Shown here: piece by piece, positions 3,034 through 20,719 of the stretch
Numbering within the stretch: the stretch's first letter is position 1
Layout: each line of letters begins with the position of its first letter
From: Catalinimonas alkaloidigena
GTDB lineage: Bacteria; Bacteroidota; Bacteroidia; Cytophagales; Flexibacteraceae
Assembly: GCF_900100765.1 (NCBI RefSeq)
Contig: NZ_FNFO01000008.1
Coordinates: 186,001 to 250,000, forward strand
Direction: 5' to 3'
DNA length: 64,000 bases
Notes under the pieces: generated by a model
Told to the model about the DNA's origin: nothing
What the model saw: only the letters and a program-made list of their open reading frames with translations
The model's database searches: none
Program-made: the position numbers and the translations under genes

Positions 3034-4578
3034 ATGGCTATACTAGGATCTGTGATTAAAGGGGTGATCCAACTGCGCGATACCCTGACCGGCGAAGAAG
3101 CGCCCTTTGCGGAACGCCAACGCAAGAGTTTGACCAATCTTCTGGAAAAGGCGAAAGATACCGCCTTCGGCAAACATTATGATTTTGCCTCTATTTTAAA
3201 AAGCGACAACCTGACGCAGGCCTTTGCCGAACGTGTGCCGCTGCACGATTACGATAAACTGCACGACGCCTGGTGGCACCGCAGCCTGGAAGGCGAAACC
3301 GACGTGTGCTGGCCCGGCAAAATCGAGTACTTCGCGCTGACGTCGGGTACGTCGGGAAGCGTCAGCAAGCACATTCCCGTCACCCAGGACATGATCGACG
3401 CCATTCGCAACACCGGCATCCGGCAGGTCTGGACGCTGGCGCACTACGATCTTCCGGCCGATTTCTTCGAGAAAGGCATCCTGATGCTGGGCAGCAGCAT
3501 TGATCTGGAAGAGAAAGACGGATACGCGCAGGGGGAAATCAGCGGCATCAGCGCCCGCAACATTCCGGCGTGGTTCGACGGCTTCTACAAACCGGGGAAA
3601 GAGATCGCGAAAATCGACGACTGGGAAGAGCGGCTGCAAAAAATTGCCGAGGAGGCACCCAACTGGGACATCGGAGCGCTGTCGGGCATTCCGGCCTGGA
3701 TTCAATTGATGCTGGAGCGCGTCATCGAGCACCACAACCTGAACAACATTCACGACATCTGGCCGCACCTGAGCGTGTACACCACCGGGGGCATTGCGTT
3801 TGAACCCTACCGGAAAACGTTTGAGAAGCTGCTGGCCCGCCCGCTGATTTACCTCGACACGTACCTGGCGTCCGAAGGCTTCATGGCGTTTCAGAGCCGC
3901 CCGAACGACCGCATGGCGATGGAGTTGATTCCCGACGAAGGAATTTTCTTCGAATTTATCCCTTTTGGTTCCGACACGTTCGACGACGCGGGCCTGCCCC
4001 GCGAAGGTGTAAAACCCGTTCCGATCGAGGAAGTGGATACCGAAACCGATTATGCCCTGGTCATTTCGACCTGTGCGGGCACCTGGCGCTATCTGATTGG
4101 CGATACGATCAAATTTACCGATCCGGAACGTGCGGAAATCATCATCAGCGGGCGCACCAAGCATTATATGGACGTGGCCGGGTCGCACCTGTCGGTCGAT
4201 AACATGAACGACGCCATGCGCCATCTTGAAGAAAAACACAACCTGACGATTCCTGAATTTGCCATCTCGGCCGAACCGTTCGAGGAGCATTTTGCCCACC
4301 GCTGGTTTGTCGGCACGGAACAGGACGTCGACAAAGAAACGCTGCGCGAATCGCTGGATGCGTTTCTAAGCGAGAAAAATAAAAACTACCGCATGGCCCG
4401 CGAAAAAGCCCTGAAACAGGTATACGTGGAGGTGGTGAAACCGGAGGTATTTTACGAGTGGCTGGAAAAGAACAAGAAGAAGGGGGGACAGATCAAAATG
4501 CCGCGCGTCCTCAAAGGCGACCAACTCGACGACTGGCGCGAATTTGCCGGTTTTACGGCCCCGGCAACGCAGCAATAA
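3034..4578 (+). CDS. GH3-family acyl-adenylating / amido synthetase-like protein
   Basis: The 514-residue protein belongs to the GH3 family, first known from plant enzymes that adenylate jasmonate or auxin and conjugate it to amino acids. The nucleotide-binding motifs are present: TSGTSGSVSKHIPV near residue 101 (phosphate loop), YLASEGFMAF near residue 275, and STCAGTWRYLIGDTIKF near residue 345. The remainder is the C-terminal cap domain. The substrates of bacterial GH3 proteins are mostly unknown, so the carboxylate used here cannot be named. The longer frame from 2992 starts with 14 unlikely residues; MAILGSVIKG at 3034 fits family N-termini. A strong intrinsic terminator follows the stop codon. 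It is a cytosolic protein with no signal peptide. Confidence 0.88.
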   Translation: MAILGSVIKGVIQLRDTLTGEEAPFAERQRKSLTNLLEKAKDTAFGKHYDFASILKSDNLTQAFAERVPLHDYDKLHDAWWHRSLEGETDVCWPGKIEYFALTSGTSGSVSKHIPVTQDMIDAIRNTGIRQVWTLAHYDLPADFFEKGILMLGSSIDLEEKDGYAQGEISGISARNIPAWFDGFYKPGKEIAKIDDWEERLQKIAEEAPNWDIGALSGIPAWIQLMLERVIEHHNLNNIHDIWPHLSVYTTGGIAFEPYRKTFEKLLARPLIYLDTYLASEGFMAFQSRPNDRMAMELIPDEGIFFEFIPFGSDTFDDAGLPREGVKPVPIEEVDTETDYALVISTCAGTWRYLIGDTIKFTDPERAEIIISGRTKHYMDVAGSHLSVDNMNDAMRHLEEKHNLTIPEFAISAEPFEEHFAHRWFVGTEQDVDKETLRESLDAFLSEKNKNYRMAREKALKQVYVEVVKPEVFYEWLEKNKKKGGQIKMPRVLKGDQLDDWREFAGFTAPATQQ

Positions 4579-4603
4579 CTTCCAATTTTGCTTTGCCTTG
4601 AAC

Positions 4604-4648
4604 AGCGCGGAAAGAGAACGAACGTTTGCTTTCCGCGCTCGTTTTTTT
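4604..4648 (+). terminator. Intrinsic terminator after the GH3-family gene
   Basis: An 11-bp perfect stem (AGCGCGGAAAG at 4604-4614 with CTTTCCGCGCT at 4629-4639) is followed by seven consecutive T from 4642. This is a textbook rho-independent terminator placed 25 bases after the GH3-family stop codon. Confidence 0.9.
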
Positions 4649-4670
4649 AAAGCATTTCTCAATTCAAAGA

Positions 4671-5075
4671 TTACGGGTTATACGATTTTCTGGCAATTGC
4701 AACGAATAGAACCAGCATGGCAAACGAAAAAATGATGTATGCTAGCACAAGCCTCTTCTCCCATGTCTTGATGTCGTCGCCATGCTTGCTGACGATGATT
4801 CGGTATCGTTTGCCGAACAGGAAAATGAAGTAGTTGACTGCATACACAGAAATGAAAATTGCAGCCCACGCTGAACCGACAAACTCTTTCTCAAGCGGAT
4901 AAAAATACAAGCCTCCTACACCGGCAATGACAAGAAGGATGGTAAAAAAAGACATTACATGAACAGCCTGAAAAGCCGGGCTTTTTATTTTGATAGAGAC
5001 ACTATACTTGTAAATGATGCTAAATAGTCGGAAGTAGATACGTATAGGATTCATCGACGAGAATGACTTGAACAC
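4671..5075 (-). CDS. Small membrane protein of unknown function (A+T-rich)
   Basis: The 134-residue product has three likely membrane segments: SFFTILLVIAGVGGLYF near residue 42, AAIFISVYAVNYFIFLF near residue 71, and VLAYIIFSFAMLVLFVAIA near residue 108. A basic loop FGKRYRIIVSKHGDDIKTWEKR separates the last two. I do not recognise the family. The gene is visibly richer in A+T than its neighbours and is bounded by two intergenic stretches, which suggests recent acquisition or relaxed selection. It faces the GH3-family gene convergently and could share the terminator between them. An alternative start is the Met at residue 8. Moderate certainty that it is coding. Confidence 0.6.
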   Translation of the reverse strand: MFKSFSSMNPIRIYFRLFSIIYKYSVSIKIKSPAFQAVHVMSFFTILLVIAGVGGLYFYPLEKEFVGSAWAAIFISVYAVNYFIFLFGKRYRIIVSKHGDDIKTWEKRLVLAYIIFSFAMLVLFVAIARKSYNP

Positions 5076-5256
5076 TTCTACCCAAAAGTAGCTTTCCTCC
5101 TAAAGAGATTTTCTTCCTATTCCCTCGCCTTCTTACACCATTTAGCTTCTTCTCTGCCGCAAGTTTAGCGGCGCGAAGCAGAGCGTAACCGCGGTAGCAC
5201 GCCGCTTGCCATAGGTCGAACTTTAAGCTCTCAACTTTCAACTCTAAACTCTCTTC

Positions 5257-6528
5257 TCATTCATACGAAATGCGGAAGCGGCTGAGGTCCGGGGTGTGGG
5301 CACGGGGGCGGGTGCGCTCGTAGTCGTAGAGGGTGCGGCCGAGTTCGCCCAGGAAGGGAAAGCCGATGGTGTCGTAGGCATAGTCGCCGTCGTTGAAGAT
5401 GCCATTTTCGTTCACCAGCACCACAGCCGACAACAGGAACTCGAGGTTGTTCTCAAAGTCGACGACGTAGGCGTTGTCAATCAGGAATCCGTAGGCATCC
5501 CCCACTTTATTGAAAACGCGGATTTGGCCGTCGAGCGGCGTTTTACGATCTCCAAACTGCAGGAACTTGACGTAGCTGTCGTGGTACGGTGGGTTCTCGT
5601 ACTTCGGATACCGAGACTCGCGAGGAAACTCCGACATCGCTTGGTAGACGAACCGGTAATCGTCGTCGGTGAGTTGGAAACGCGCTTGTTCCGGAACTGA
5701 CTCGGGAAACAACAATGCCCGGAGGAGTCGCTGTTGTTCCTCCAGGGGGTAAAAGTTCAGGCCGGAAAAATCTTTCGGTTCCATCACTACGTGGCCTTCG
5801 ATCATCTCGCCTTTGCCTTTCAGGATCGGCGCGGGTGCTTCGTAGACGCGTTGGCTGGTCACGAGCGGTTGTTCGTAAAGCAACTGCTCATCGGCATCGT
5901 AAAAGCGCACCGGGTTGGTCTGGCGGCTCTGCTCCGGCGTGCGGGCCACTTCCAGCCGGTGGAAAATCCGCGTGTCGGTGTAGCCTTTCGCGTGGAGGCG
6001 TTCGTTGAGCGGTTCCTGTCCGATGAACTCGTAGAGGCGGTTGTAGGCGTCGTTGTCGCTCACCAGCAGAATTTTCCGGACGTAGTGCGCCACGGACGGC
6101 AACCCTGTCGCCGAGGTCGTGTCTTCGTAGACCGCCGTTTGCCCCACCGCCCCGCTGTCGGTTAGCATCGTGCTGTATTTGTCCAGACCGGGAATGGCGA
6201 GTTGGTTCAGCTTTTCGAGGGCGAGCAACGCGGTGGGCAGTTTCGCCGTGCTGGCAGGGTAGAAGTAGCGGGTGGAATCGACGTTCAGGCGGTATGACCT
6301 GAACGTCGGGCGGTTCGCTGCGTCGCGGTCGATCTGCGTGTAGAGGATCTGGTATTCAAAATGTTCGGGCTGGCGTAACACCCGCTCCAGGACGGGCGAG
6401 TGGCGATTGCGCAACAACCGGATTAACAGGTCATTGCCCGGCGTGTCGGCCCCCGATGCCGCATGGTACGAAGAAGAACAGGCAGAAAGTCCCACAAGCA
6501 AGAAGAGAAAGATTCGACTTAGTAGCAC
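5257..6528 (-). CDS. Serine hydrolase, class A beta-lactamase-like lipoprotein
   Basis: This 423-residue protein resembles the beta-lactamase class A fold (PF13354-type). The Ser-x-x-Lys catalytic motif is YPASTAKLP near residue 93, and the SDN-type motif is VSDNDAYNRLYEF near residue 180. A KTG-like triad is not obvious; the segment VFNKVGDAYGFL near residue 338 may replace it. The N-terminus is a signal peptide ending LVGLSAC, a lipobox, so the protein is probably a lipoprotein. The substrate could be peptidoglycan peptides or a beta-lactam, but the length (true class A enzymes are about 290 residues) and the large insertion between the motifs argue against a classical resistance enzyme. 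The start is GTG at 6526-6528, since no ATG precedes the signal peptide. Confidence 0.8.
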   Translation of the reverse strand: MLLSRIFLFLLVGLSACSSSYHAASGADTPGNDLLIRLLRNRHSPVLERVLRQPEHFEYQILYTQIDRDAANRPTFRSYRLNVDSTRYFYPASTAKLPTALLALEKLNQLAIPGLDKYSTMLTDSGAVGQTAVYEDTTSATGLPSVAHYVRKILLVSDNDAYNRLYEFIGQEPLNERLHAKGYTDTRIFHRLEVARTPEQSRQTNPVRFYDADEQLLYEQPLVTSQRVYEAPAPILKGKGEMIEGHVVMEPKDFSGLNFYPLEEQQRLLRALLFPESVPEQARFQLTDDDYRFVYQAMSEFPRESRYPKYENPPYHDSYVKFLQFGDRKTPLDGQIRVFNKVGDAYGFLIDNAYVVDFENNLEFLLSAVVLVNENGIFNDGDYAYDTIGFPFLGELGRTLYDYERTRPRAHTPDLSRFRISYE

Positions 6529-6667
6529 TATTTAAATAAAAAATATGTCATATATTAACCAAAAGTCGCCGGGATGTCTCTCACCCTTATCGCATCCGGT
6601 GGCGCAAGAAATGACGCGAAGAAGAAGCTGCGCGCCGGGTGGGGCTCCATCTTCACACAACCTTTCA

Positions 6668-6675
6668 TAACTTTG
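6668..6675 (+). promoter_or_regulatory. Candidate Bacteroidota -7 element upstream of ileS
   Basis: TAACTTTG matches the TAnnTTTG consensus of Bacteroidota primary sigma factor promoters and lies 54 bases before the ileS ATG. No clear TTG -33 element is visible at the expected distance, so this is only a candidate. Confidence 0.45.
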
Positions 6676-6729
6676 TAAATCATCCACGGACCTACGCGCT
6701 TGGCGCAGCATCCGCTTTTTCAGACTGCC

Positions 6730-9700
6730 ATGAAGTATCCTGAATATAAGAATCCTGATTACGCGCAGATCGGGCAAGATATCCTCCAATTCTGGAAGGA
6801 GAAAGACATTTTCGAGAAATCGGTTTCCAGTCGTGAGGGCAACGCGGCCTACACGTTTTACGAAGGACCGCCCTCGGCCAACGGAACGCCGGGCATTCAC
6901 CACGTGATGGCCCGGACAGTGAAGGACCTGGTGTGTCGGTACCAGACGCTAAAGGGCTTTCAAGTAAAGCGCAAGGGCGGTTGGGACACCCACGGCCTGC
7001 CCATCGAAATTCAGGTGGAAAAAGAGCTGGGCATCACGAAAGAAGACATCGGCAAAACCATTTCGGTTGAAGAGTACAACGCCCGGTGCCGCGAGGCGGT
7101 GATGAAATACAAGGGCCAGTGGGACGACCTGACGGAGAAAATGGGCTACTGGGTCGACTTGCACGATCCGTACGTGACCTTCGAGTCCGATTACATGGAG
7201 ACGTTGTGGAACCTGTTGAAGAAGCTGTACGACAAGCACCTGCTGTATAAAGGCTACACGATCCAGCCCTACTCCCCGGCGGCGGGGACGGGTCTGTCGT
7301 CGCACGAGCTGAACCAGCCCGGCACCTACCGCGACGTGAAGGATACGTCGGTGGTGGCGCAGTTCAAGGTGGTGCGGAACGAGAAATCGGACTTCCTCTT
7401 CGACGCCCCTTCAGAGTCGGTGTATTTCCTGGCTTGGACGACTACACCCTGGACCCTGCCAGCCAACTCGGCATTGGCCGTGGGCGACAGCATCGACTAC
7501 GTTCGCGTCCGGACCTTCAATCCGTATACCTACGAGCCGGTCACCGTCATTCTGGCCGCCGCTCTCATGCCGCAGTACTTTTCTTCGAAAGCCGAAGGGC
7601 TGTCGCTGGAAGACTACAAGCCGGGCGACAAACAGATTCCGTACCTCGTGACCGGGACCTACAAAGGTCGCGAACTCCTGGGCGTGAAGTACGAACAACT
7701 GCTGCCTTACGTTACGCCCGAAAAACCTGCGTTCCGTGTCATTTCCGGCGATTACGTCAGTACAGACGACGGTACGGGCATTGTGCATATTTCGCCGACC
7801 TTCGGGGCGGACGACTACCGCGTCGCGCAACAGGCCGACATTCCGGCCATCCTGGTCGATTACCCTGACGGCAGCAAGGGGCCAATTGTAGACAAACAGG
7901 GCCGGTTTACGCCGGAAATCACGGACTGGGCCGGAAAATACGTGAAGAATTACGACGGCCAGGACGAAAACGACCCGAATTACAAGTCGACCGATGTACT
8001 GATCGCCATCAAACTCAAAGAAGAGAACAAGGCGTTTAAGGTCGAGAAATACGAACACAGCTACCCGCACTGCTGGCGGACCGACAAGCCCGTGTTGTAT
8101 TACCCGCTCGATTCGTGGTTTATCCGCACGACGGCTTACAAAGACAAGCTCGTGAAGCTGAACCACACCATCAACTGGAAACCCGTTTCGACGGGCATCG
8201 GGCGGTTCGGCAACTGGCTGGAAAACCTTGTGGACTGGAACCTGTCGCGTTCGCGCTACTGGGGAACGCCCCTGCCGATCTGGCGCTCGGAAGACAACCA
8301 GGCGGAGGTCTGCATCGGTTCGTACAAAGAACTGCAAAAGCATCTCGAAGAGGCGTTAGCAAGCGAGGCACTTTCGGACACGCAACGGGCGAACAACGAG
8401 GCCGCACTGGAGCGACTCCGTGCCGGTGAATTCGACCCGCACCGCCCGTTTGTGGACGACATTACGCTGGTGAGCAAAGAAGGGACGCTGATGTTCCGCG
8501 AGCCGGACCTGATCGACGTGTGGTTCGATTCGGGTGCGATGCCTTACGCGCAGTGGCACTATCCGTTCGAGAACGTCGAGTCGTTCGCCCAGAACTTCCC
8601 GGCCGATTTCATCGCCGAAGGCGTCGATCAGACGCGCGGCTGGTTTTTCACGCTGCACGCGCTGGCGGGGATGCTGTTTGACTCCGTTGCCTTCAAAAAC
8701 GTGATTTCGAACGGCCTGGTGCTCGACAAAAACGGCAACAAAATGTCGAAGCGGCATGGCAACGCGGTCGATCCCTTTCAGACGCTGGCTACCTACGGAC
8801 CGGACGCCACGCGCTGGTACATGATTTCGAACGCCTCGCCGTGGGAAAACCTCAAATTCAACCCCGACGGCGTGCAGGAAGTGCAGCGTAAGTTCTTCGG
8901 CACGTTGCACAACACCTACGCGTTCTTCGCGCTCTACGCCAACCTCGACGGCTTCACCTTTGCCGAGCCGCCCGTGCCGTTGGCCAACCGTACGGAAAGC
9001 GACCGCTGGGTCATCTCGCGCCTTAACACGCTGATCAAAACGGTAGAACGGGCGATGGACGAGTACGAACCCACCCGGGCGGCCCGCGCCATTCAGGACT
9101 TCGTGAACGACGACCTGAGCAACTGGTACGTGCGCCTGAATCGGAAACGTTTCTGGAAACAGGACTACAATGAAGACAAACGAGCGGCCTACCAGACCCT
9201 CTACACGTGTCTGATGACGGTCGCGCAACTGGCCTCGCCCATCGCCCCTTTCTACGCGGAGCGGTTGTACCAGGACCTGAACGGTGAAGCGCGCTACGGT
9301 GCGGAGTCGGTGCACCTGACCCGTTTCCCGAAGGCCGACGAGAAGGCCATCGACCAGGCGCTGGAATTCCGCATGTCGCTGGCGCAACGCGCCTCGTCGC
9401 TGGTTCACTCCATCCGCAAGCAGCACAAGCTGAAGGTACGTCAGCCGCTGTCGCGCATTCTGATTCCGGTGCTGAACGAGCAGGTGAAAGAGCAGCTTTC
9501 GGCCGTGGCCGAACTGATCCTCTCAGAGGTAAACGTGAAGAAGCTAGAGTACATCGACGATACGTCGGGCGTGCTGGTAAAGCGGATCAAACCGAATTTC
9601 CGCAAGCTGGGCAAGCAGTTTGGTCCGAAGATGAAAGACGTGGCGGCGCTGATCAACGGCTTTAACCAAGACGACATCCGCGACTTCGAGCAAAACGGTG

Positions 9701-10101
9701 GCAAGGACATCGACGTGGACGGACAAGCGTATCGCCTCACCGAAGAGGACGTCGAGATCACGTCGGAGGACATTCCGGGCTGGATCGTCGCCAGTGAAGA
9801 TGGACTGACCGTCGCGCTCGACCTGGCCCTGACCGACGAACTGAAACAGGAAGGGATCGCCCGCGACTTAGTCAACCGTGTACAGAACATGCGGAAGGAC
9901 ATGGGCCTCGACGTGCAGGACAAAATCCGCATCGCCATCGAAAAATCGGACGAGCTGGTCAACGCCGCCCTGACGGCCAACCAGGAATACATCTGCACCG
10001 AAACCCAGGCGTTGGAACTCAACCTCCTCGACCGGGTAGAAGGTGCACAGTCCGTCGACATGGACGACATTCAACTGCAAATGCGCATCGAGGGCGTGTA
10101 G
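6730..10101 (+). CDS. ileS: Isoleucyl-tRNA synthetase, IleS2 type with altered GIHH signature
   Basis: IleRS charges tRNA-Ile with isoleucine using ATP in the cytosol. The 1123-residue product has the class I Rossmann fold. The first signature lies in PSANGTPGIHHVM and reads G55-I56-H57-H58, where the usual motif is HxGH; the second signature, KMSKR, is intact at residues 671-675. The editing domain region includes TTTPWTLPAN. The segment PYSPAAGTGLSSHE is typical of the eukaryote-like IleS2 clade. Glycine and the first histidine being swapped (GxHH) is known in a subset of IleS2 enzymes that are extremely tolerant to mupirocin. The ATG at 6730 gives the conserved N-terminus MKYPEYKN; a TTG at 6700 is less likely. 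It is transcribed alone and followed by a terminator. Confidence 0.97.
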   Translation: MKYPEYKNPDYAQIGQDILQFWKEKDIFEKSVSSREGNAAYTFYEGPPSANGTPGIHHVMARTVKDLVCRYQTLKGFQVKRKGGWDTHGLPIEIQVEKELGITKEDIGKTISVEEYNARCREAVMKYKGQWDDLTEKMGYWVDLHDPYVTFESDYMETLWNLLKKLYDKHLLYKGYTIQPYSPAAGTGLSSHELNQPGTYRDVKDTSVVAQFKVVRNEKSDFLFDAPSESVYFLAWTTTPWTLPANSALAVGDSIDYVRVRTFNPYTYEPVTVILAAALMPQYFSSKAEGLSLEDYKPGDKQIPYLVTGTYKGRELLGVKYEQLLPYVTPEKPAFRVISGDYVSTDDGTGIVHISPTFGADDYRVAQQADIPAILVDYPDGSKGPIVDKQGRFTPEITDWAGKYVKNYDGQDENDPNYKSTDVLIAIKLKEENKAFKVEKYEHSYPHCWRTDKPVLYYPLDSWFIRTTAYKDKLVKLNHTINWKPVSTGIGRFGNWLENLVDWNLSRSRYWGTPLPIWRSEDNQAEVCIGSYKELQKHLEEALASEALSDTQRANNEAALERLRAGEFDPHRPFVDDITLVSKEGTLMFREPDLIDVWFDSGAMPYAQWHYPFENVESFAQNFPADFIAEGVDQTRGWFFTLHALAGMLFDSVAFKNVISNGLVLDKNGNKMSKRHGNAVDPFQTLATYGPDATRWYMISNASPWENLKFNPDGVQEVQRKFFGTLHNTYAFFALYANLDGFTFAEPPVPLANRTESDRWVISRLNTLIKTVERAMDEYEPTRAARAIQDFVNDDLSNWYVRLNRKRFWKQDYNEDKRAAYQTLYTCLMTVAQLASPIAPFYAERLYQDLNGEARYGAESVHLTRFPKADEKAIDQALEFRMSLAQRASSLVHSIRKQHKLKVRQPLSRILIPVLNEQVKEQLSAVAELILSEVNVKKLEYIDDTSGVLVKRIKPNFRKLGKQFGPKMKDVAALINGFNQDDIRDFEQNGGKDIDVDGQAYRLTEEDVEITSEDIPGWIVASEDGLTVALDLALTDELKQEGIARDLVNRVQNMRKDMGLDVQDKIRIAIEKSDELVNAALTANQEYICTETQALELNLLDRVEGAQSVDMDDIQLQMRIEGV

Positions 10102-15301: not shown

Positions 15302-16585
15302 TTAACGGTGCGGGAGCACGATTTTCATCTCCGTACCCTGCCGAACCTTACTTTTGACCTTCAGTTGCCCGCCTAATTTCTCGACACTCGTCTTTACAAT
15401 AAACAGTCCCAGCCCGCTCCCATTCGAGTCCTGGTTGCCGCGGTAAAACATATCAAACGCCCGCTTTAGCAGGTGTTTGTCCATTCCCTGGCCATTATCT
15501 TTCACTGTAATGACGACAGCACCTTTCTGCTGCCGCGCACTTACGTAAATGAGCGTACGGCAACAGCCTCGGTACTGCCGGTACTTGATGCTGTTTTCAA
15601 CCAGGTTTTGTAGTACTGAGCGGACCAGTTTCTCGTTGGAGGTAAGCACCAGTTTGTCGTCGATCTGGAGGTTGAGAGTCACCTCTTCGCGACCCGGATA
15701 CGTCTCTAATGCGCTAGTAACTTCCTGAACCAGTGCAGAAAGATTGAAGGTTTGTAGCGAAAGTTCTGCCTGGCTGGTCATACCAATTTCCAAAAGGCCC
15801 GACAGCGTGTTGTTCAACTTTTCCGCACTTTTCTTAATGAGCGACAGGTAGTACTGGAGGTTGGTCAGGTTGTCGGTTTCTTTCTCTACAATCTGGAACA
15901 ACCCCAACATACTGGCCAGCGGTCCCTTCAAGTCATGAGAAGTGCGGTAAATTAGGGTTTGCAATTCCTCATTTCTTTGATTTAAGGCACTGGTTGTCAG
16001 CAACTTTTCTTTCAAGTCTTCGGCAATCATCAGGTAACCCGTCGGCTCCTGTTGGTTATTTTTGAGTACGAACAAAGAGAGCGTAACGGGCAGGTTCTCC
16101 TTGCTCAGCAACTTAAAAGAAGTCTCTATATCCTGTAGCGCTTCTTTGCTCTGTATCAGTGTTTTGAGGCGATGCACAAACCTGGCTTTTCGTCCATCAA
16201 ATAAAACATTGATGGGTTGCCCAATCAGATCCGGCTCCGAACATTTGAGCAACTCGCATGCTTTGGGCGTAACCTGTTGAATCACAAAACTGTCGTCAAA
16301 AATGAAGAGCATGTCTACAATGCTTCGCAACACGCTATCCAGGTAGTTCTTAGAAATCGTAGTCGCCTGCAACTCTTCGCTCAACATGTTGATGCCCGAA
16401 GCGATCGCGTCAATTTCGTCGAACCTATTAGAAACAGGGGCTATATGCCGGAAGTTACCCTCGGCAAGGTGCAGCAAGACTTGATTGATTTGCTCAACCT
16501 GATACTGCTTAGCGAACTCGCGACTAATATTTTTGACCGCAGGGGTGAGTAGTTCCGGTTCCAGTTCCATAGTGTGTGGTGTCAT
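15302..16585 (-). CDS. Soluble PAS-domain sensor histidine kinase
   Basis: The 427-residue protein has an N-terminal segment with a HAMP-like helical look (HIAPVSNRFDEIDAIASGINML), a PAS domain at about residues 80-190 (YLDSVLRSIVDMLFIFDDSF onward), a HisKA helix with phospho-acceptor His217 (TSHDLKGPLA) and a HATPase domain with N box NLVENSIKYR, G1 DNGQGM and G2 GSGLGLFIV. No membrane segment is seen, so it should sense a cytosolic signal. Its ATG (16583-16585) shares one base with the stop of the upstream STAS-like gene (TAATG), a sign of translational coupling. No response regulator gene is adjacent. A TTG start at 16606 is possible. The gene is less G+C-rich than most of the window. Confidence 0.9.
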   Translation of the reverse strand: MTPHTMELEPELLTPAVKNISREFAKQYQVEQINQVLLHLAEGNFRHIAPVSNRFDEIDAIASGINMLSEELQATTISKNYLDSVLRSIVDMLFIFDDSFVIQQVTPKACELLKCSEPDLIGQPINVLFDGRKARFVHRLKTLIQSKEALQDIETSFKLLSKENLPVTLSLFVLKNNQQEPTGYLMIAEDLKEKLLTTSALNQRNEELQTLIYRTSHDLKGPLASMLGLFQIVEKETDNLTNLQYYLSLIKKSAEKLNNTLSGLLEIGMTSQAELSLQTFNLSALVQEVTSALETYPGREEVTLNLQIDDKLVLTSNEKLVRSVLQNLVENSIKYRQYRGCCRTLIYVSARQQKGAVVITVKDNGQGMDKHLLKRAFDMFYRGNQDSNGSGLGLFIVKTSVEKLGGQLKVKSKVRQGTEMKIVLPHR

Positions 16586-16959
16586 TATACGTACTGTTTT
16601 AGCCAAGAAATGGCTTTGGCCTCTTCGGTAAACATCTTGTGGGGGATCGCAGGCCGGTGGTGGTGGAAAATGAAAGTAATAAGCAATTTGCTTACTACAT
16701 TAGAACAGACAATGGCAATCGCTTTTATGTCTTTTAAGCCTCTTTCTTTACTAAAGAGATATTCTCGTGCAGGTTTATCAATCCCTTTTATTCTCGCATT
16801 TTTGATAAGCACAGGCACTTGAATATTCCCGTAAAATTTCTGTCGTTCGGAAACGATGCGTTGTGCGTCTTCAAGGCGGATATGAATATTAGGCTTATAC
16901 TGAACGAAAATGATATCATCGCTTAATTCCGACACAAAGTATTCTGTCTCTAAATGCAT
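16585..16959 (-). CDS. STAS/SEC14-like small protein, copy 1 (coupled to histidine kinase)
   Basis: This 124-residue protein is clearly paralogous to the product at 17220-17597. Shared positions include AREYLFS versus AREFFSS, KAIAIVCSN versus TALAVVISN, and WLKQYV versus WIKKIS at the C-terminus. The alternating strands and helices and the length suggest a STAS/SEC14-like fold, as in a Bacteroidota family I recall as DUF7793; this is an inference from pattern only. STAS proteins often act as regulated anti-sigma antagonists or lipid/nucleotide sensors. The ATG at 16959 aligns with the paralogue's start; a GTG at 17001 would add 14 residues. Its stop overlaps the start of the histidine kinase, suggesting that the two act together. 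Confidence 0.78.
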   Translation of the reverse strand: MHLETEYFVSELSDDIIFVQYKPNIHIRLEDAQRIVSERQKFYGNIQVPVLIKNARIKGIDKPAREYLFSKERGLKDIKAIAIVCSNVVSKLLITFIFHHHRPAIPHKMFTEEAKAISWLKQYV

Positions 16960-17052
16960 ATACTCTTGAGAGTTATCACGAATACGGTGCTGCTGCCACA
17001 CCGTCTTTTTTGTTAGAATAAACCTAAATTCCTATTACCTAAAACGCACTGT

Positions 17053-17219: not shown

Positions 17220-17597
17220 TTAAGAGATCTTTTTGATCCAATTGGTAGCATCCTGCACATTCCCAAACAGTTGAAAGGGATATTTAGGTGCATGAAATTT
17301 CAGAAAGAAATTCCCGATGGTGCGTGTCACCGGATTACTAATTACGACTGCCAAGGCGGTTAAATCTTCTCCGGCCTGGCCGGAAGAAAAGAACTCACGT
17401 GCCTCCTTAGGAATCTTCTTGACTGCAGAAATATCCGCAATTGCCGGCGTAGGCTGCCCACCTGTAAGCTGATGACGAAAGGCAGTCGCCGTTTTAGCAA
17501 TCTCAAGACTTACCTCCTCTACCTTATAGCGCCCATATAAGATACCGTCTTTTAACTCAAAAGCGACAGTATCGTTCTCAAGTCTTAAATCATTCAT
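17220..17597 (-). CDS. STAS/SEC14-like small protein, copy 2
   Basis: The 125-residue product (MNDLRLENDTVAFELKDG...) shares its whole length with the 124-residue protein at 16585-16959, so this is a tandem duplication that has diverged considerably. The middle segment PAIADISAVKKIPKEAREFF and the end TNWIKKIS are the best matches. It has no signal peptide or membrane segment. It is the first gene of a possible three-gene unit reading copy 2, copy 1, histidine kinase, and is divergent from the oxoamine synthase fusion at 17761. A candidate -7 box lies 20 bases upstream. Function unknown; a regulatory role by analogy to STAS proteins is inference. Confidence 0.78.
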   Translation of the reverse strand: MNDLRLENDTVAFELKDGILYGRYKVEEVSLEIAKTATAFRHQLTGGQPTPAIADISAVKKIPKEAREFFSSGQAGEDLTALAVVISNPVTRTIGNFFLKFHAPKYPFQLFGNVQDATNWIKKIS

Positions 17598-17617
17598 AGG
17601 AGTTAAAATTATTACGT

Positions 17618-17625
17618 CAAAATTA
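17618..17625 (-). promoter_or_regulatory. Candidate -7 element for the STAS-like/kinase unit
   Basis: On the minus strand this reads TAATTTTG, matching TAnnTTTG, 20 bases before the ATG of the STAS-like copy 2. The surrounding 160 bases (17598-17760) are strongly A+T-rich and hold the divergent promoters of this unit and of the synthase gene. Confidence 0.4.
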
Positions 17626-17760
17626 TTTTAAGTCTTCGAATATTTTTTTTATTCATCCCCGCAAAACTTACATGCTACAGAAGCATAGATCAAATCAACA
17701 AAATATGAAAATATCTATAAATAATATTGCCAAGATAGCAAGCAAAACCGAATTATCTCT

Positions 17761-20190
17761 ATGGCTAAATCACGGCATAACCACATGCTCGATACGATTG
17801 GAAGTATCATATTAAACGCAAAAAAGGAAAAACTGCTCCATTTATACGCTGAAGGCGAGTATTTTGACGGTAGGCACATCCAGGTGCAGGGGAAACACCT
17901 CTTCCACTTTGGGACAACCGGCTACCTCGGTCTGGAACAAGACCAACGCCTGAAAGATGCTGCGATTGATGCCATCCAACGGTACGGTACCCAATTCCCC
18001 CTTTCCAAAACGTATATCTCCTTTCCGATTTATAAAGAGTTAGAGGAAAGCCTCCGTCAGATCTACCAACGCCCCATTGTAGTGACGAAGAACAGTACGC
18101 TGGCGCACATTGGTGTCATTCCGACGATTGTCCGCGATGAAGATGCCCTGATTCTGGATCAGCAGGTACACGCCAGTGTACAGAATGCAAGCCAACTTCT
18201 GAAGCCTCGTGGTATCCCCGTGCAGCTTGTGAAGCACAGCGACATTGGTATGCTGGAGGATACGATCAAGAGTTTGCGTGACAAGCACCAGAAAATCTGG
18301 TACGCAGCCGACGGCGTTTATTCGATGTACGGCGACGTAGTACCGCTGCACGAACTTCTTCCTCTTATGGAAAAGTATCCGCAGTTACACCTCTATATCG
18401 ATGACGTGCACGGCATGAGCTGGGCAGGTCGTAACGGTGCCGGCTACGTAATGAGTCAGCTGGGCGAATTGCGCGAGCGTATAATTCTGGTAGGCACCCT
18501 CAGCAAATCGTTTGGTGCCAGTGGCAGTGTCGTGGCGTTTGGCGACGAAGATCTGTACGAAGCATTCCGGATTTTCGGAGGGCCGCAGACCTTCTCTGCC
18601 CAGCTGGAACCTTCGAGCGTAGCAGCGGCGCTGGCTTCCGCCAAGATTCACCTTTCGGACGAAATCTATGAATTGCAGCGCGATCTGGCCGAAAAGGTAG
18701 CGTATTGCAACGAATTGATCCGGGCTACCGACCTGCCGTTGATTCAGGAAAACGTATGTCCGGTCCACTTCATCGGAGGAGCCCTGCCCGCCGTTTCCTA
18801 CAACTTTGCACGGCGCCTCATGGACGATGGTTTCTACATCAACGTGGCGACATTCCCGGCCGTTCCGGTTAAAAACACAGGCATTCGCTTCACCATCTCA
18901 CGACACAACCAGAAGGAAGACATCCGGCAGCTGGTCGAAGCGATGACCCACCATTACCCCATCGCGCTGCAGGAAGAGGGATATTCTATGAATCAGGTAC
19001 GTAAAGCGTTCCGACTCGCTCCCCTCAAGGCTGCGTCTGCCACACCGCAAACGCCTGCGCCAACGCTGCGTGTGCAGCTTGCTTCTTCCATCAACGAAAT
19101 TGAACCGGCGGAGTGGAATGCTCTTCTGGGCGAGCGTGGTGCTTTCGACTGGAACGCACTGGCGTTTTACGAGCAGGCTTTTTCAAAGCAGCCTAACCCT
19201 CATCACAACTGGAAGTTTATCTACCTGTTGATCCGTGACAATACCCAAAAGGTCGTACTGGCTACGTTCTTTACGGTGGCGTGGTGGAAAGACGATATGC
19301 TCGCACCGGCCGCTGTTTCGGAACAAGTGGAGAAAATTCGCGCCGAGAATCCGGACTATCTGGTTTCACAAGTCCTAAGCATGGGTTCGCTCATTACGGA
19401 TGGTGAACATCTGTATCTGGACAAGCGCCATCCGCAATACAAGGAAGCGCTAAAAACCATGAACCAGGAAATTGAGCAGCTGAGGCAGCAGTACAACTGC
19501 AGCACGGTTGCGCTCCGCGACTTAGACGCTGAGGACGAAGAGTTAAACACGGTTCTTCATGCCCAAGGTTACCTGCAAGTGGACATGCCGGAAGGAACGG
19601 TAGTTGAGTCGCTCGACTGGCAAGATCAGGAAGATTATCTGCAGCGTCTCTCCACAAAATCGCGTTCGCATGTGAAGAAAGACGTACTGAAGTACAAGAA
19701 ATATTACAAAATTGAGGTAAAAAGCCAACTTACTGACGAGGAACTAACGTCTGCATACGATTTATATAAAAACGTAAGCGCCCACAATTACGCCTTAAAT
19801 AACGTGGAATTTCCCTTGTCGCTGTTTCAGGACATGAACCAAAGTCCTCATTGGGAAGCCATTACGTTTCGACTCAAAGGTGAACACACGCTAGAAGGTC
19901 GGGATATGCTGATCGGCGTTTCGTTTAGCTATAAAACCTCTGAAGGATATTGTGGCGTACTCCTGGGCATGGATTATCGCTACTCAAAAGAGTACAAAGT
20001 TTACAAACAGATTCTGTTTGAGAACATTATGCGAGCGCAGGCATTGGGCAAAAAGCGCATCTACCTGGGTCTAACGTCTGCACAGGAGAAGCGCAAGTAC
20101 GGCGCCACCCTGAAGCCACGCCTGGCCTACCTGCAAACGCAAGACAACTACAAGCTTGAGTTAATTGAGTCGCTGGCCACAGTGCAATAA
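17761..20190 (+). CDS. Alpha-oxoamine synthase fused to a FemAB/GNAT-like acyltransferase
   Basis: The 809-residue protein has two parts. Residues 1-405 form a PLP enzyme of the alpha-oxoamine synthase family (relatives: BioF, KBL, serine palmitoyltransferase, CqsA). The PLP lysine is K249 in GTLSKSFGASGS; D214 and H217 in IDDVHG hold the cofactor. Such enzymes condense an acyl-thioester with an amino acid, losing CO2. After an Ala/Pro/Thr-rich linker (about 420-440), residues 445-809 look like a FemAB/GNAT N-acyltransferase, with KSRSHVKKDVLKYKKYY near 638 and IYLGLTSAQEKRKYGA near 767. BioF is about 385 residues and lacks this second domain, so biotin synthesis is unlikely. A long-chain amino-ketone lipid that is then N-acylated is my preferred inference; an autoinducer synthase is an alternative. 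A bidirectional terminator follows. Confidence 0.88.
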   Translation: MAKSRHNHMLDTIGSIILNAKKEKLLHLYAEGEYFDGRHIQVQGKHLFHFGTTGYLGLEQDQRLKDAAIDAIQRYGTQFPLSKTYISFPIYKELEESLRQIYQRPIVVTKNSTLAHIGVIPTIVRDEDALILDQQVHASVQNASQLLKPRGIPVQLVKHSDIGMLEDTIKSLRDKHQKIWYAADGVYSMYGDVVPLHELLPLMEKYPQLHLYIDDVHGMSWAGRNGAGYVMSQLGELRERIILVGTLSKSFGASGSVVAFGDEDLYEAFRIFGGPQTFSAQLEPSSVAAALASAKIHLSDEIYELQRDLAEKVAYCNELIRATDLPLIQENVCPVHFIGGALPAVSYNFARRLMDDGFYINVATFPAVPVKNTGIRFTISRHNQKEDIRQLVEAMTHHYPIALQEEGYSMNQVRKAFRLAPLKAASATPQTPAPTLRVQLASSINEIEPAEWNALLGERGAFDWNALAFYEQAFSKQPNPHHNWKFIYLLIRDNTQKVVLATFFTVAWWKDDMLAPAAVSEQVEKIRAENPDYLVSQVLSMGSLITDGEHLYLDKRHPQYKEALKTMNQEIEQLRQQYNCSTVALRDLDAEDEELNTVLHAQGYLQVDMPEGTVVESLDWQDQEDYLQRLSTKSRSHVKKDVLKYKKYYKIEVKSQLTDEELTSAYDLYKNVSAHNYALNNVEFPLSLFQDMNQSPHWEAITFRLKGEHTLEGRDMLIGVSFSYKTSEGYCGVLLGMDYRYSKEYKVYKQILFENIMRAQALGKKRIYLGLTSAQEKRKYGATLKPRLAYLQTQDNYKLELIESLATVQ

Positions 20191-20251: not shown

Positions 20252-20719
20252 TTACCAACGAACCCCTTCTGGCGCTTCAGCAAGATGTTTCAGCACCTGG
20301 TTGCGTTGCATTAATAAGCGCCGCATATACTGCTCCAAAAACAAACCATCTGCGAAGCGGCCTACCATGCCAAAGGGGGTGGTATAGTCGAACACATCGC
20401 GCATGCGAGTTCCACCTTTGTGCGCTTCAAAAAAATGGTCATGATCAAAACGATGAAAGGCACCTTGCTGCATCGAATCGCGAAAGTAATGAGGAGATTC
20501 ATACTGCGTGATGCAGGAGGTCAGGTGCTGCCATATCCCCAAGTGCTTAGCACGCCAGGTCACACAGTCGTGCAACGCTAACAGTCCCGATGTTTTGCCC
20601 GCAACAGCTTGCTCTTTTCGGTTTTCCATTGAAGCGGTGTGTGCATCAACCGATCGGGCAAGGTCAAATACTTGCTGGCAAGGGGCCTGAATAAACGTCT
20701 CTAATCGAATGATCGGCAT
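20252..20719 (-). CDS. SRPBCC (START-like) family protein
   Basis: The 155-residue protein has the pattern of an SRPBCC/polyketide-cyclase fold: MPIIRLETFIQAPCQQVFDLARSVD at the start, then a run of alternating strands with TWRAKHLGIWQHLTSCITQYESP and FDHDHFFEAHKGGTRMRDVFDYTTPFG, and a long C-terminal helix (FLEQYMRRLLMQRNQVLKHL). Such proteins bind hydrophobic ligands in a deep pocket; the ligand is unknown. It is the last gene of a minus-strand unit (secreted protein, purine nucleoside phosphorylase, this gene), 10 bases after the phosphorylase stop. It lies next to the lipid-type synthase fusion, which is suggestive but proves nothing. Confidence 0.8.
   Translation of the reverse strand: MPIIRLETFIQAPCQQVFDLARSVDAHTASMENRKEQAVAGKTSGLLALHDCVTWRAKHLGIWQHLTSCITQYESPHYFRDSMQQGAFHRFDHDHFFEAHKGGTRMRDVFDYTTPFGMVGRFADGLFLEQYMRRLLMQRNQVLKHLAEAPEGVRW

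Follow-up and report, generated by a model that had tools for sequence, protein, structure and literature searches.

A gene fusing an alpha-oxoamine synthase to a FemX-like transferase in Catalinimonas alkaloidigena and other Bacteroidota, and its possible role in signal synthesis

An alpha-oxoamine synthase-transferase fusion with a sporadic distribution

The window analysed here is a stretch of 64,000 nt from Catalinimonas alkaloidigena (contig NZ_FNFO01000008.1, positions 186,001 to 250,000 of the forward strand). At 17761..20190 on its + strand lies an open reading frame (ORF) with an ATG start, which encodes a putative synthase of 809 aa with an alpha-oxoamine synthase (AOS) in its first half and a predicted GNAT-type transferase in its second half. 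A reading made from the sequence alone, the sequence-only reading, had pointed to the pyridoxal phosphate (PLP) lysine K249 and to D214 and H217 in this protein; all three are present, and they are invariant in 32/32 aligned full-length fusions. The Ala/Pro/Thr linker that it described between the halves is seen in the translation at residues ~419-438 (19015..19074, + strand), and its length varies among the aligned relatives. Because relatives align over nearly the full length, with 34-55% identity, and the gene recurs in other genomes, the fusion is not a chance event.

The sequence-only reading had also called for a wider search for the fusion and its neighbours. The full fusion was found in 5 of 98 relative genomes (7 loci; E <1e-160), in 21 of 341 genomes of the order (E <1e-80), and in 8 of 395 genomes of the phylum, one of which (G153) has it split into two frames; the own genome is included in each of these counts. 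None of 10 other genomes of the window's own family was found to contain it. The fusion is scattered sporadically through the Bacteroidota. The G+C content is 42-44% at 16-18 kb of the window, versus 50-60% in most flanking kilobases. The absence from the own-family genomes and the low G+C content are both compatible with a gain of the region by transfer. For comparisons of the neighbourhood, 38 fusion loci were used, i.e. nine from the first rounds, eight of the family f26, the window, and 20 from the order; two remnant loci (L121 and L122) were considered in addition.

Not all copies are intact, as the gene is split or truncated in L082, L149, and L155, and only remnants are present at L121 and L122. 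Such copies would be expected if the two halves took part in unrelated reactions or if the fusion were degrading. However, the 32 intact copies share many invariant residues in both halves, without exception, and we regard this explanation as very improbable.

The alpha-oxoamine synthase half probably belongs to a distinct clade

The alpha-oxoamine synthase domain comprises residues 49-394 (17905..18942, + strand), as delineated with the Pfam family Aminotran_1_2 (PF00155, E 1.7e-24, over the cut-off), NCBIfam models, and a residue table. Besides K249, D214, and H217, the stacking His (H137) and the carboxylate Arg (R376) are kept in 32/32 fusions, and by its sequence the first half is assigned to the alpha-oxoamine synthase superfamily. 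The best NCBIfam match is PRK07505 (NF005697), a model that is named "hypothetical protein" and carries no function; the score of 279 bits is under its curated cut-off of 342. The scores with other models, i.e. BioF (171 bits), serine palmitoyltransferase (SPT, 160 bits), and the CqsA type (70 bits), are all under the cut-offs as well.

The standard pocket Asn of these enzymes (Asn53 of SulA) is replaced by Cys in 21 of the 32 fusions and by Thr in the other 11, among them the window protein (Thr53). Of 28 standard AOS rows, 27 keep the Asn and one, own_C6, has Thr. The pocket Cys is also present in four rhizobial plasmid rows, in L135 from a viral collection, and in a gene of genome G030 that consists of the N-half only. 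In an AOS tree of 66 rows the 32 fusions group together (support 98/92), and the fusions, L135, G030, and the rhizobial genes form one group (99/97), apart from the Kbl, BioF, and SPT/SulA types. The placement of L135 is weak (86/56) and that of G030 has values of 98/93; long branches lead to own_C6, own_C11, Ec_BioF, G030, and other rows, and two of the joins were flagged by the program as possibly false. The grouping in the tree together with the replacement of the pocket Asn suggests that the first half belongs to a distinct AOS clade, other than CqsA/LqsA.

Non-fused members of this clade are near response regulators in four of the six sampled cases. Three of the four rhizobial plasmid records are among them (L156, L158, and L159); the AOS gene of L158 is also near genes for an acyl-homoserine lactone (AHL) synthase and receptor, and that of L159 is near TraR/TraM. 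L135 (IMGVR_UViG_3300024336_000001, 4497-9848) encodes an AOS that lacks a GNAT half; the next gene is that of a seven-transmembrane (7TM) histidine kinase, and a response regulator is encoded on the strand opposite to this pair. The N-half of G030 (L044) has PRK07505 as its best NCBIfam match, too.

The second half is predicted to be a tandem-GNAT, FemX-like transferase

The transferase half comprises residues ~435-809 (19063..20187, + strand), and its assignment is based on the Pfam families PF13480 and PF04339, an AlphaFold model, and fold searches. In the whole protein, Acetyltransf_6 (PF13480) matches residues 633-778 with 21.7 bits versus a cut-off of 22, and FemAB_like (PF04339) matches residues 443-676 with 20.5 bits versus a cut-off of 27. 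When the C-half is scanned alone, the former is over its cut-off (23.2 bits) and the latter is still under it (23.6 bits). At E values up to 0.01, Acetyltransf_6 matches 28 of the 32 C-halves, and the only other families found in them are PF04339 and, once, PPR_2; the FemAB family proper, which we take to be PF02388, matches none. When solved structures were searched with a sequence profile of the C-half, only two fragments of alanyl-tRNA synthetases were returned (E 0.25-0.28). A GNAT protein encoded on its own in an f26 genome (L088) was detected as a relative of the C-half with a probability of 97.7.

A model of the C-half was built by AlphaFold from four sequences (pLDDT 74.5, pTM 0.72). 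The top Foldseek match is Weissella FemX (E 5e-12), followed by S. aureus FemX and FemA. Alignment with VIA-align yielded Z values of 21.5 for FemX (6snr; root-mean-square deviation 5.1, 310 residues), 21.1 for FemA (1lrz), and 21.0 for the aminoacyl-tRNA-dependent peptide synthases Sbb17 and Sba18 (deviations of 3.5 and 3.2 over 275 and 271 residues, respectively). MprF (Z 17.7) and N-myristoyltransferases (Z ~16-17) rank lower. From these matches, the C-half is predicted to be a tandem GNAT in the FemX arrangement. The sequence-only reading had called this half acyltransferase-like and proposed a structural comparison with FemX; both the profiles and the predicted fold are of the GNAT/FemAB type, as it had anticipated.

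The tandem-GNAT fold is thus common to the fusion and the FemABX proteins (FemX, FemA, Sbb17, and Sba18; Z 19.5-21.5). The sequence identity to the C-half is only 12-17%, and the AOS half is an addition of the fusion. An invariant lysine, K777, is located near the C-terminal end in 32/32 fusions, roughly where Lys329 of DhpH-C and the catalytic Lys305 of FemX should be placed (PMC12945691), and by this approximate position it is a candidate counterpart of Lys305.

Relationship to lipid-forming enzymes

The sequence-only reading had preferred a sphingolipid- or sulfonolipid-type product. The fusion would then be a specialised lipid enzyme, with the long-chain or capnine-like base formed by the AOS half being N-acylated by the GNAT half to a ceramide- or sulfonolipid-like membrane lipid, and with DUF7793 proteins and the kinase encoded by the divergent genes sensing and tuning the state of the membrane. 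The resemblance of the AOS half to SPT and BioF and the matches of the C-half model to N-myristoyltransferase-like folds would be in line with this explanation. However, the scores with the three NCBIfam models of SPT are 159.8, 155.8, and 121.2 bits, versus cut-offs of 500, 640, and 670, and membership in the SPT family was rejected. Moreover, the own genome contains a separate ortholog of the SulA-type cysteate acyltransferase (G000:C11; L036, 7068-8312), which has scores of 599 and 581 bits with SulA-type structures and has kept Lys281. SulA is a single-domain enzyme of the same AOS superfamily, whereas the fusion has two halves and has Ala (12), Gly (11), or Val (9) at the position of Lys281. 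This active-site lysine is missing in 32/32 fusions, and an identity with SulA was rejected on that ground.

For bacterial ceramide synthase, with which the sequence-only reading had proposed a structural comparison, no relation was detectable at the level of one sequence. With YghO of E. coli BL21 (ECD_02850, by inference from the gene order), a single sequence and a candidate ceramide N-acyltransferase, hhalign gave a probability of 0.2% for the C-half. The role of YghO is itself only suggested in PMC9386255. In addition, no gene for a keto-reductase, an acyl carrier protein (ACP), or an acyl-ligase was seen beside the fusion when the ORF list of the window was inspected by eye at 10-30 kb, and a sporadic spread would be unusual for a structural lipid. 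The presence of a separate SulA ortholog and the lack of Lys281 weaken the lipid explanation, and we consider it unlikely.

Divergent DUF7793 and regulator genes

A gap of 163 bp (17598..17760), presumably a divergent promoter region, separates the fusion gene from a DUF7793 gene on the - strand (17220..17597; 125 aa; PF25056, E 4.6e-29), whose product is a candidate ligand carrier or sensor partner. A second DUF7793 protein (16585..17001, - strand; 138 aa) has one hydrophobic segment (1.76) and matches the SpoIIAA-like family PF11964 with 27.4 bits versus a cut-off of 25; no further DUF7793 genes were found in the own genome by the family search. The third gene (15302..16585, - strand) encodes a histidine kinase with PAS, HisKA, and HATPase domains according to Pfam; the ATG at 16585 was chosen as its start, and the ORF list starts it at a TTG at 16606. 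The divergent histidine kinase unit of the sequence-only reading is therefore composed of two DUF7793 genes and a PAS kinase gene. The start codon of the kinase overlaps the stop codon of the second DUF7793 gene (TAATG), so that the two are probably translated together; the frames of DUF7793 and kinase genes, taken as first-start ORFs, also overlap in four loci elsewhere. Scans of this region for sigma-70-type promoters and terminators yielded nothing above shuffled sequences. Crystal structures of SpoIIAA-like proteins have been likened to CRAL-TRIO carriers, and a small nonpolar cargo was proposed (PMC2954212), which would also suit a lipid product.

Downstream of the fusion gene, a small polyketide-cyclase/lipid-transport-like protein is encoded convergently (20252-20719). 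At L123, L124, L130, and L132, a DUF7793 gene overlaps or precedes a sensor kinase gene and no synthase gene is nearby; seven further DUF7793 loci (L125-L129, L131, and L133) have no such kinase directly beside them.

DUF7793 adjoins the fusion in 34 of the 38 loci, always divergently and at a distance of ≤384 bp. In the sample of 395 genomes, DUF7793 is present in 8/8 genomes with the fusion and in 12/387 others (Fisher test, 9e-12, ignoring kinship). A sensor kinase or an AraC-type regulator was found within 6 kb in 22 of the 38 loci by phmmer matches to the window kinase or to the PAS-AraC protein of L080. Six of these regulators were analysed with Pfam: those of the window, L005, L038, and L041 are kinases with PAS, that of L080 combines PAS with a helix-turn-helix (HTH) domain, and that of L006 has an HTH domain and no PAS match. 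Small proteins of 217-226 aa match the window kinase in three more loci (L144, L147, and L150), and L148, L149, L151, and L152 encode proteins of one family (188-217 aa), with a PAS match under the cut-off in L148. In ten loci (L004, L005, L136-L141, L143, and L146) a hybrid kinase gene starts 8-39 bp past the synthase gene; its receiver was identified by phmmer, and by Pfam for L005 only. L041 has a kinase and a NarL regulator. The output therefore varies between kinase, hybrid kinase-receiver, kinase plus NarL, and AraC-type HTH proteins, while DUF7793 recurs. The truncated or split fusions at L121, L122, L082, L149, and L155 adjoin DUF7793 genes that are open, and at L121, L122, and L082 the gene for an AraC-type regulator beside the broken fusion is open as well.

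In the LqsA-LqsS-LqsR and CqsA-CqsS systems, an AOS-type synthase is genetically linked to a histidine kinase, and the AOS gene beside a sensor kinase gene in the window resembles this arrangement. The fusion could accordingly be an alpha-hydroxyketone autoinducer synthase of the CqsA/LqsA type. However, the scores with the NCBIfam model NF005526 are 70-74 bits (70; 73.9) versus a cut-off of 428, CqsA is not known to have a second acyltransferase half, and a membrane sensor kinase would be expected, whereas the window kinase has no 19-residue segment with a hydropathy over 1.6 and is soluble by this measure. CqsA/LqsA membership was rejected because the score is far under the cut-off and the kinase lacks a membrane segment, and such a function is highly improbable. 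Compared with the Lqs and Cqs systems, the fusion has another AOS clade, an extra transferase half, a soluble PAS kinase, and a DUF7793 partner; a CqsA/LqsA-like trait within its clade is the 7TM domain of the kinase beside the L135 AOS.

Alternatively, the fusion could make an antibiotic-like secondary metabolite, which the cell would sense for self-regulation and not as a measure of cell density. Such a role would fit the sporadic distribution. Among solved structures, 8xha is the one nearest in sequence to the AOS half; it is named Alb29 of S. albogriseolus in PMC11906848. FemX-like GNATs work in antibiotic pathways (PMC12945691). However, no gene for tailoring, export, or resistance stood out beside the fusion when the gene lists of the 38 loci were inspected by eye, and this explanation appears rather unlikely.

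Direct repeats in the Flavobacterium-like family

The family f26 appears to be the Flavobacteriaceae, and its genus g67 appears to be Flavobacterium; the related locus L006 is from Paenimyroides, Flavobacteriaceae. In f26 the partner protein belongs to the AraC type, and the one that was scanned (L080) contains PAS. AraC-type regulators bind half-sites that are ~21 bp apart. A direct repeat with 21-bp spacing and a consensus near TTGTCAAATCGGGANTA is present in the gap between the synthase and DUF7793 genes in 7 of 9 loci (eight of f26 plus L006) and in both remnant loci; it was not found in L081 or L006. Of the nine repeat-bearing loci, all but L080 have the repeat upstream of MauE as well. 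Its distance to MauE is 56-58 bp in seven loci, and ~63 bp in L078 on the assumption that translation starts at an internal Met.

No repeat pairs were found in 2200 mononucleotide shuffles or in 58 other loci with a total of 953,498 bases. The matches in the synthase gap and at MauE are partly found by construction, as these sites were used to derive the consensus. Genome-wide, the pattern with at most one mismatch has 24 matches in eight g67 genomes, 17 of which are at fusion or remnant loci. Four of the others are at a third place ~10.6-11.9 kb further (two in G235 and one each in G164 and G426), and three are elsewhere. The backward pattern has no match, and the fusion-free genome G122 has none either. 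Based on these sequences, the regulator of f26 very likely acts on the promoter of the synthase gene, i.e. in autoinduction.

The third place follows a small HTH gene (of the Cro/C1 type by Pfam in L172, and by eye in the others) and precedes variable genes, among which models of anti-phage systems were matched, i.e. DRT reverse transcriptases in L172 and L173 and bSEFIR in L175. Sites with at most one mismatch occur at this place in L172-L175. L176 (PtuA) has only sites with two mismatches nearby, and no third site was found in L177-L179, of which L178 carries PbeA/PbeC. In L171, neither the synthase nor DUF7793 was seen by eye among the listed ORFs. MauE is followed by a DUF6520-type gene and then, on the opposite strand, by genes for an S9 peptidase, SusD, and SusC/TonB (L172, 3336-10848, and similar places; Pfam was run on L172 for the peptidase, SusD, and SusC, and on L080 for DUF6520). 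An RteC gene is adjacent in 7 of the nine loci (Pfam on L078 and L080); the RteC family is named after a protein of conjugative transposons.

Discussion

We propose that the fusion is a bifunctional enzyme whose product is a signal, namely an aminoketone that is N-acylated or N-aminoacylated, with cytosolic DUF7793 and PAS proteins as readers, and we give this proposal about an even chance. It is the best explanation because it accounts for the fusion, the conserved divergence, and the operators together. Judging from its AOS residues, the PLP half would form an alpha-aminoketone from an amino acid and an acyl thioester, and the fold of the tandem-GNAT, FemX-like half suggests that it would transfer an acyl or aminoacyl group onto the new amine. 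The product would be a small signal, either diffusible or partitioning into membranes. Inside the cell it would be read by the products of the divergent genes, i.e. the SpoIIAA-like DUF7793 and a PAS protein. The PAS protein has a histidine kinase as its output in the window and a DNA-binding domain of the AraC type in the Flavobacterium-like family, where the regulator very likely acts on the synthase promoter, which would lead to autoinduction. If the product were an N-aminoacyl-aminoketone, it could cyclise to a pyrazinone. The autoinducer synthase that the sequence-only reading had named as its alternative is supported in general terms by the neighbourhoods, the operators, and the wider AOS clade, but not as a member of the CqsA/LqsA type.

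The receptor VqmA of the signal 3,5-dimethylpyrazin-2-ol (DPO) is a PAS-HTH protein. For DPO, aminoacetone is joined with alanyl-adenylate to N-alanyl-aminoacetone, which cyclises to the signal, and the authors propose that DPO has no dedicated synthase (PMC12930378). The proposed reaction of the fusion likewise joins an aminoketone to an activated amino acid, but here one fused protein would be the synthase. A much more specific version would be a dedicated autoinducer of the N-aminoacyl-aminoketone (pyrazinone/DPO-like) type that is made via aminoacyl-tRNA, with a complete DUF7793/PAS circuit that is mobile in the Flavobacterium-like family and switches on MauE-DUF6520 and anti-phage cargo at high density; this version is doubtful, and we would not expect it to hold in full.

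Several observations weigh against a signal synthase with dedicated readers. Four fusion loci (L039, L042, L043, and L142) have neither DUF7793 nor a regulator of the above types within 6 kb, and G059 and G487, the genomes of two of these sensor-less loci, have no DUF7793 match at all. G025 has 18 DUF7793 genes, but the contigs that carry its two fusions contain none of them. Conversely, DUF7793 and a kinase are encoded without a nearby synthase in G409, G233, G252, and G331, so that these two proteins may respond to another stimulus and have no more than a regulatory effect on the enzyme. Taken together, the sensor-less loci and the synthase-free DUF7793-kinase pairs argue against a strict synthase-sensor pair. 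In the wider clade, the rhizobial record L157 has no response regulator, AHL, or TraR/TraM genes nearby, and no sensor gene was recognised by eye near the N-half-only gene of G030. Two of the loci without DUF7793 have neighbours that would suit lipid work, i.e. ACP-synthase-III-like and DUF6999 proteins near L039 (2889-5793) and an APP1 phosphatidate phosphatase near L042. The model of the full-length protein was poor (pTM 0.39) and was not used, and the predicted fold of the C-half cannot separate acyl-coenzyme A, acyl-ACP, and aminoacyl-tRNA as donors, as the N-myristoyltransferases follow the FemX-type proteins in the ranking.

The sequence-only reading knew of no characterised enzyme of this exact layout. 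A related layout, in the opposite domain order, is that of Rv0032 BioF2 of M. tuberculosis, the extra domain of which is presumably GNAT-like. BioF2 is described as an AOS that has an extra N-terminal domain and fails to complement bioF (PMC12910592); the likeness is drawn from that description, and the transferase of the fusion is C-terminal. A literature search of titles and the beginnings of abstracts, with most subscription journals outside its range, retrieved nothing on the fusion, on DUF7793, or on AOS-based signalling in Bacteroidota.

With the operators and the neighbouring genes at hand, the question of signalling could be put to a direct test with a reporter, and the FemX-like half would predict that the product belongs to an unusual class of molecules.

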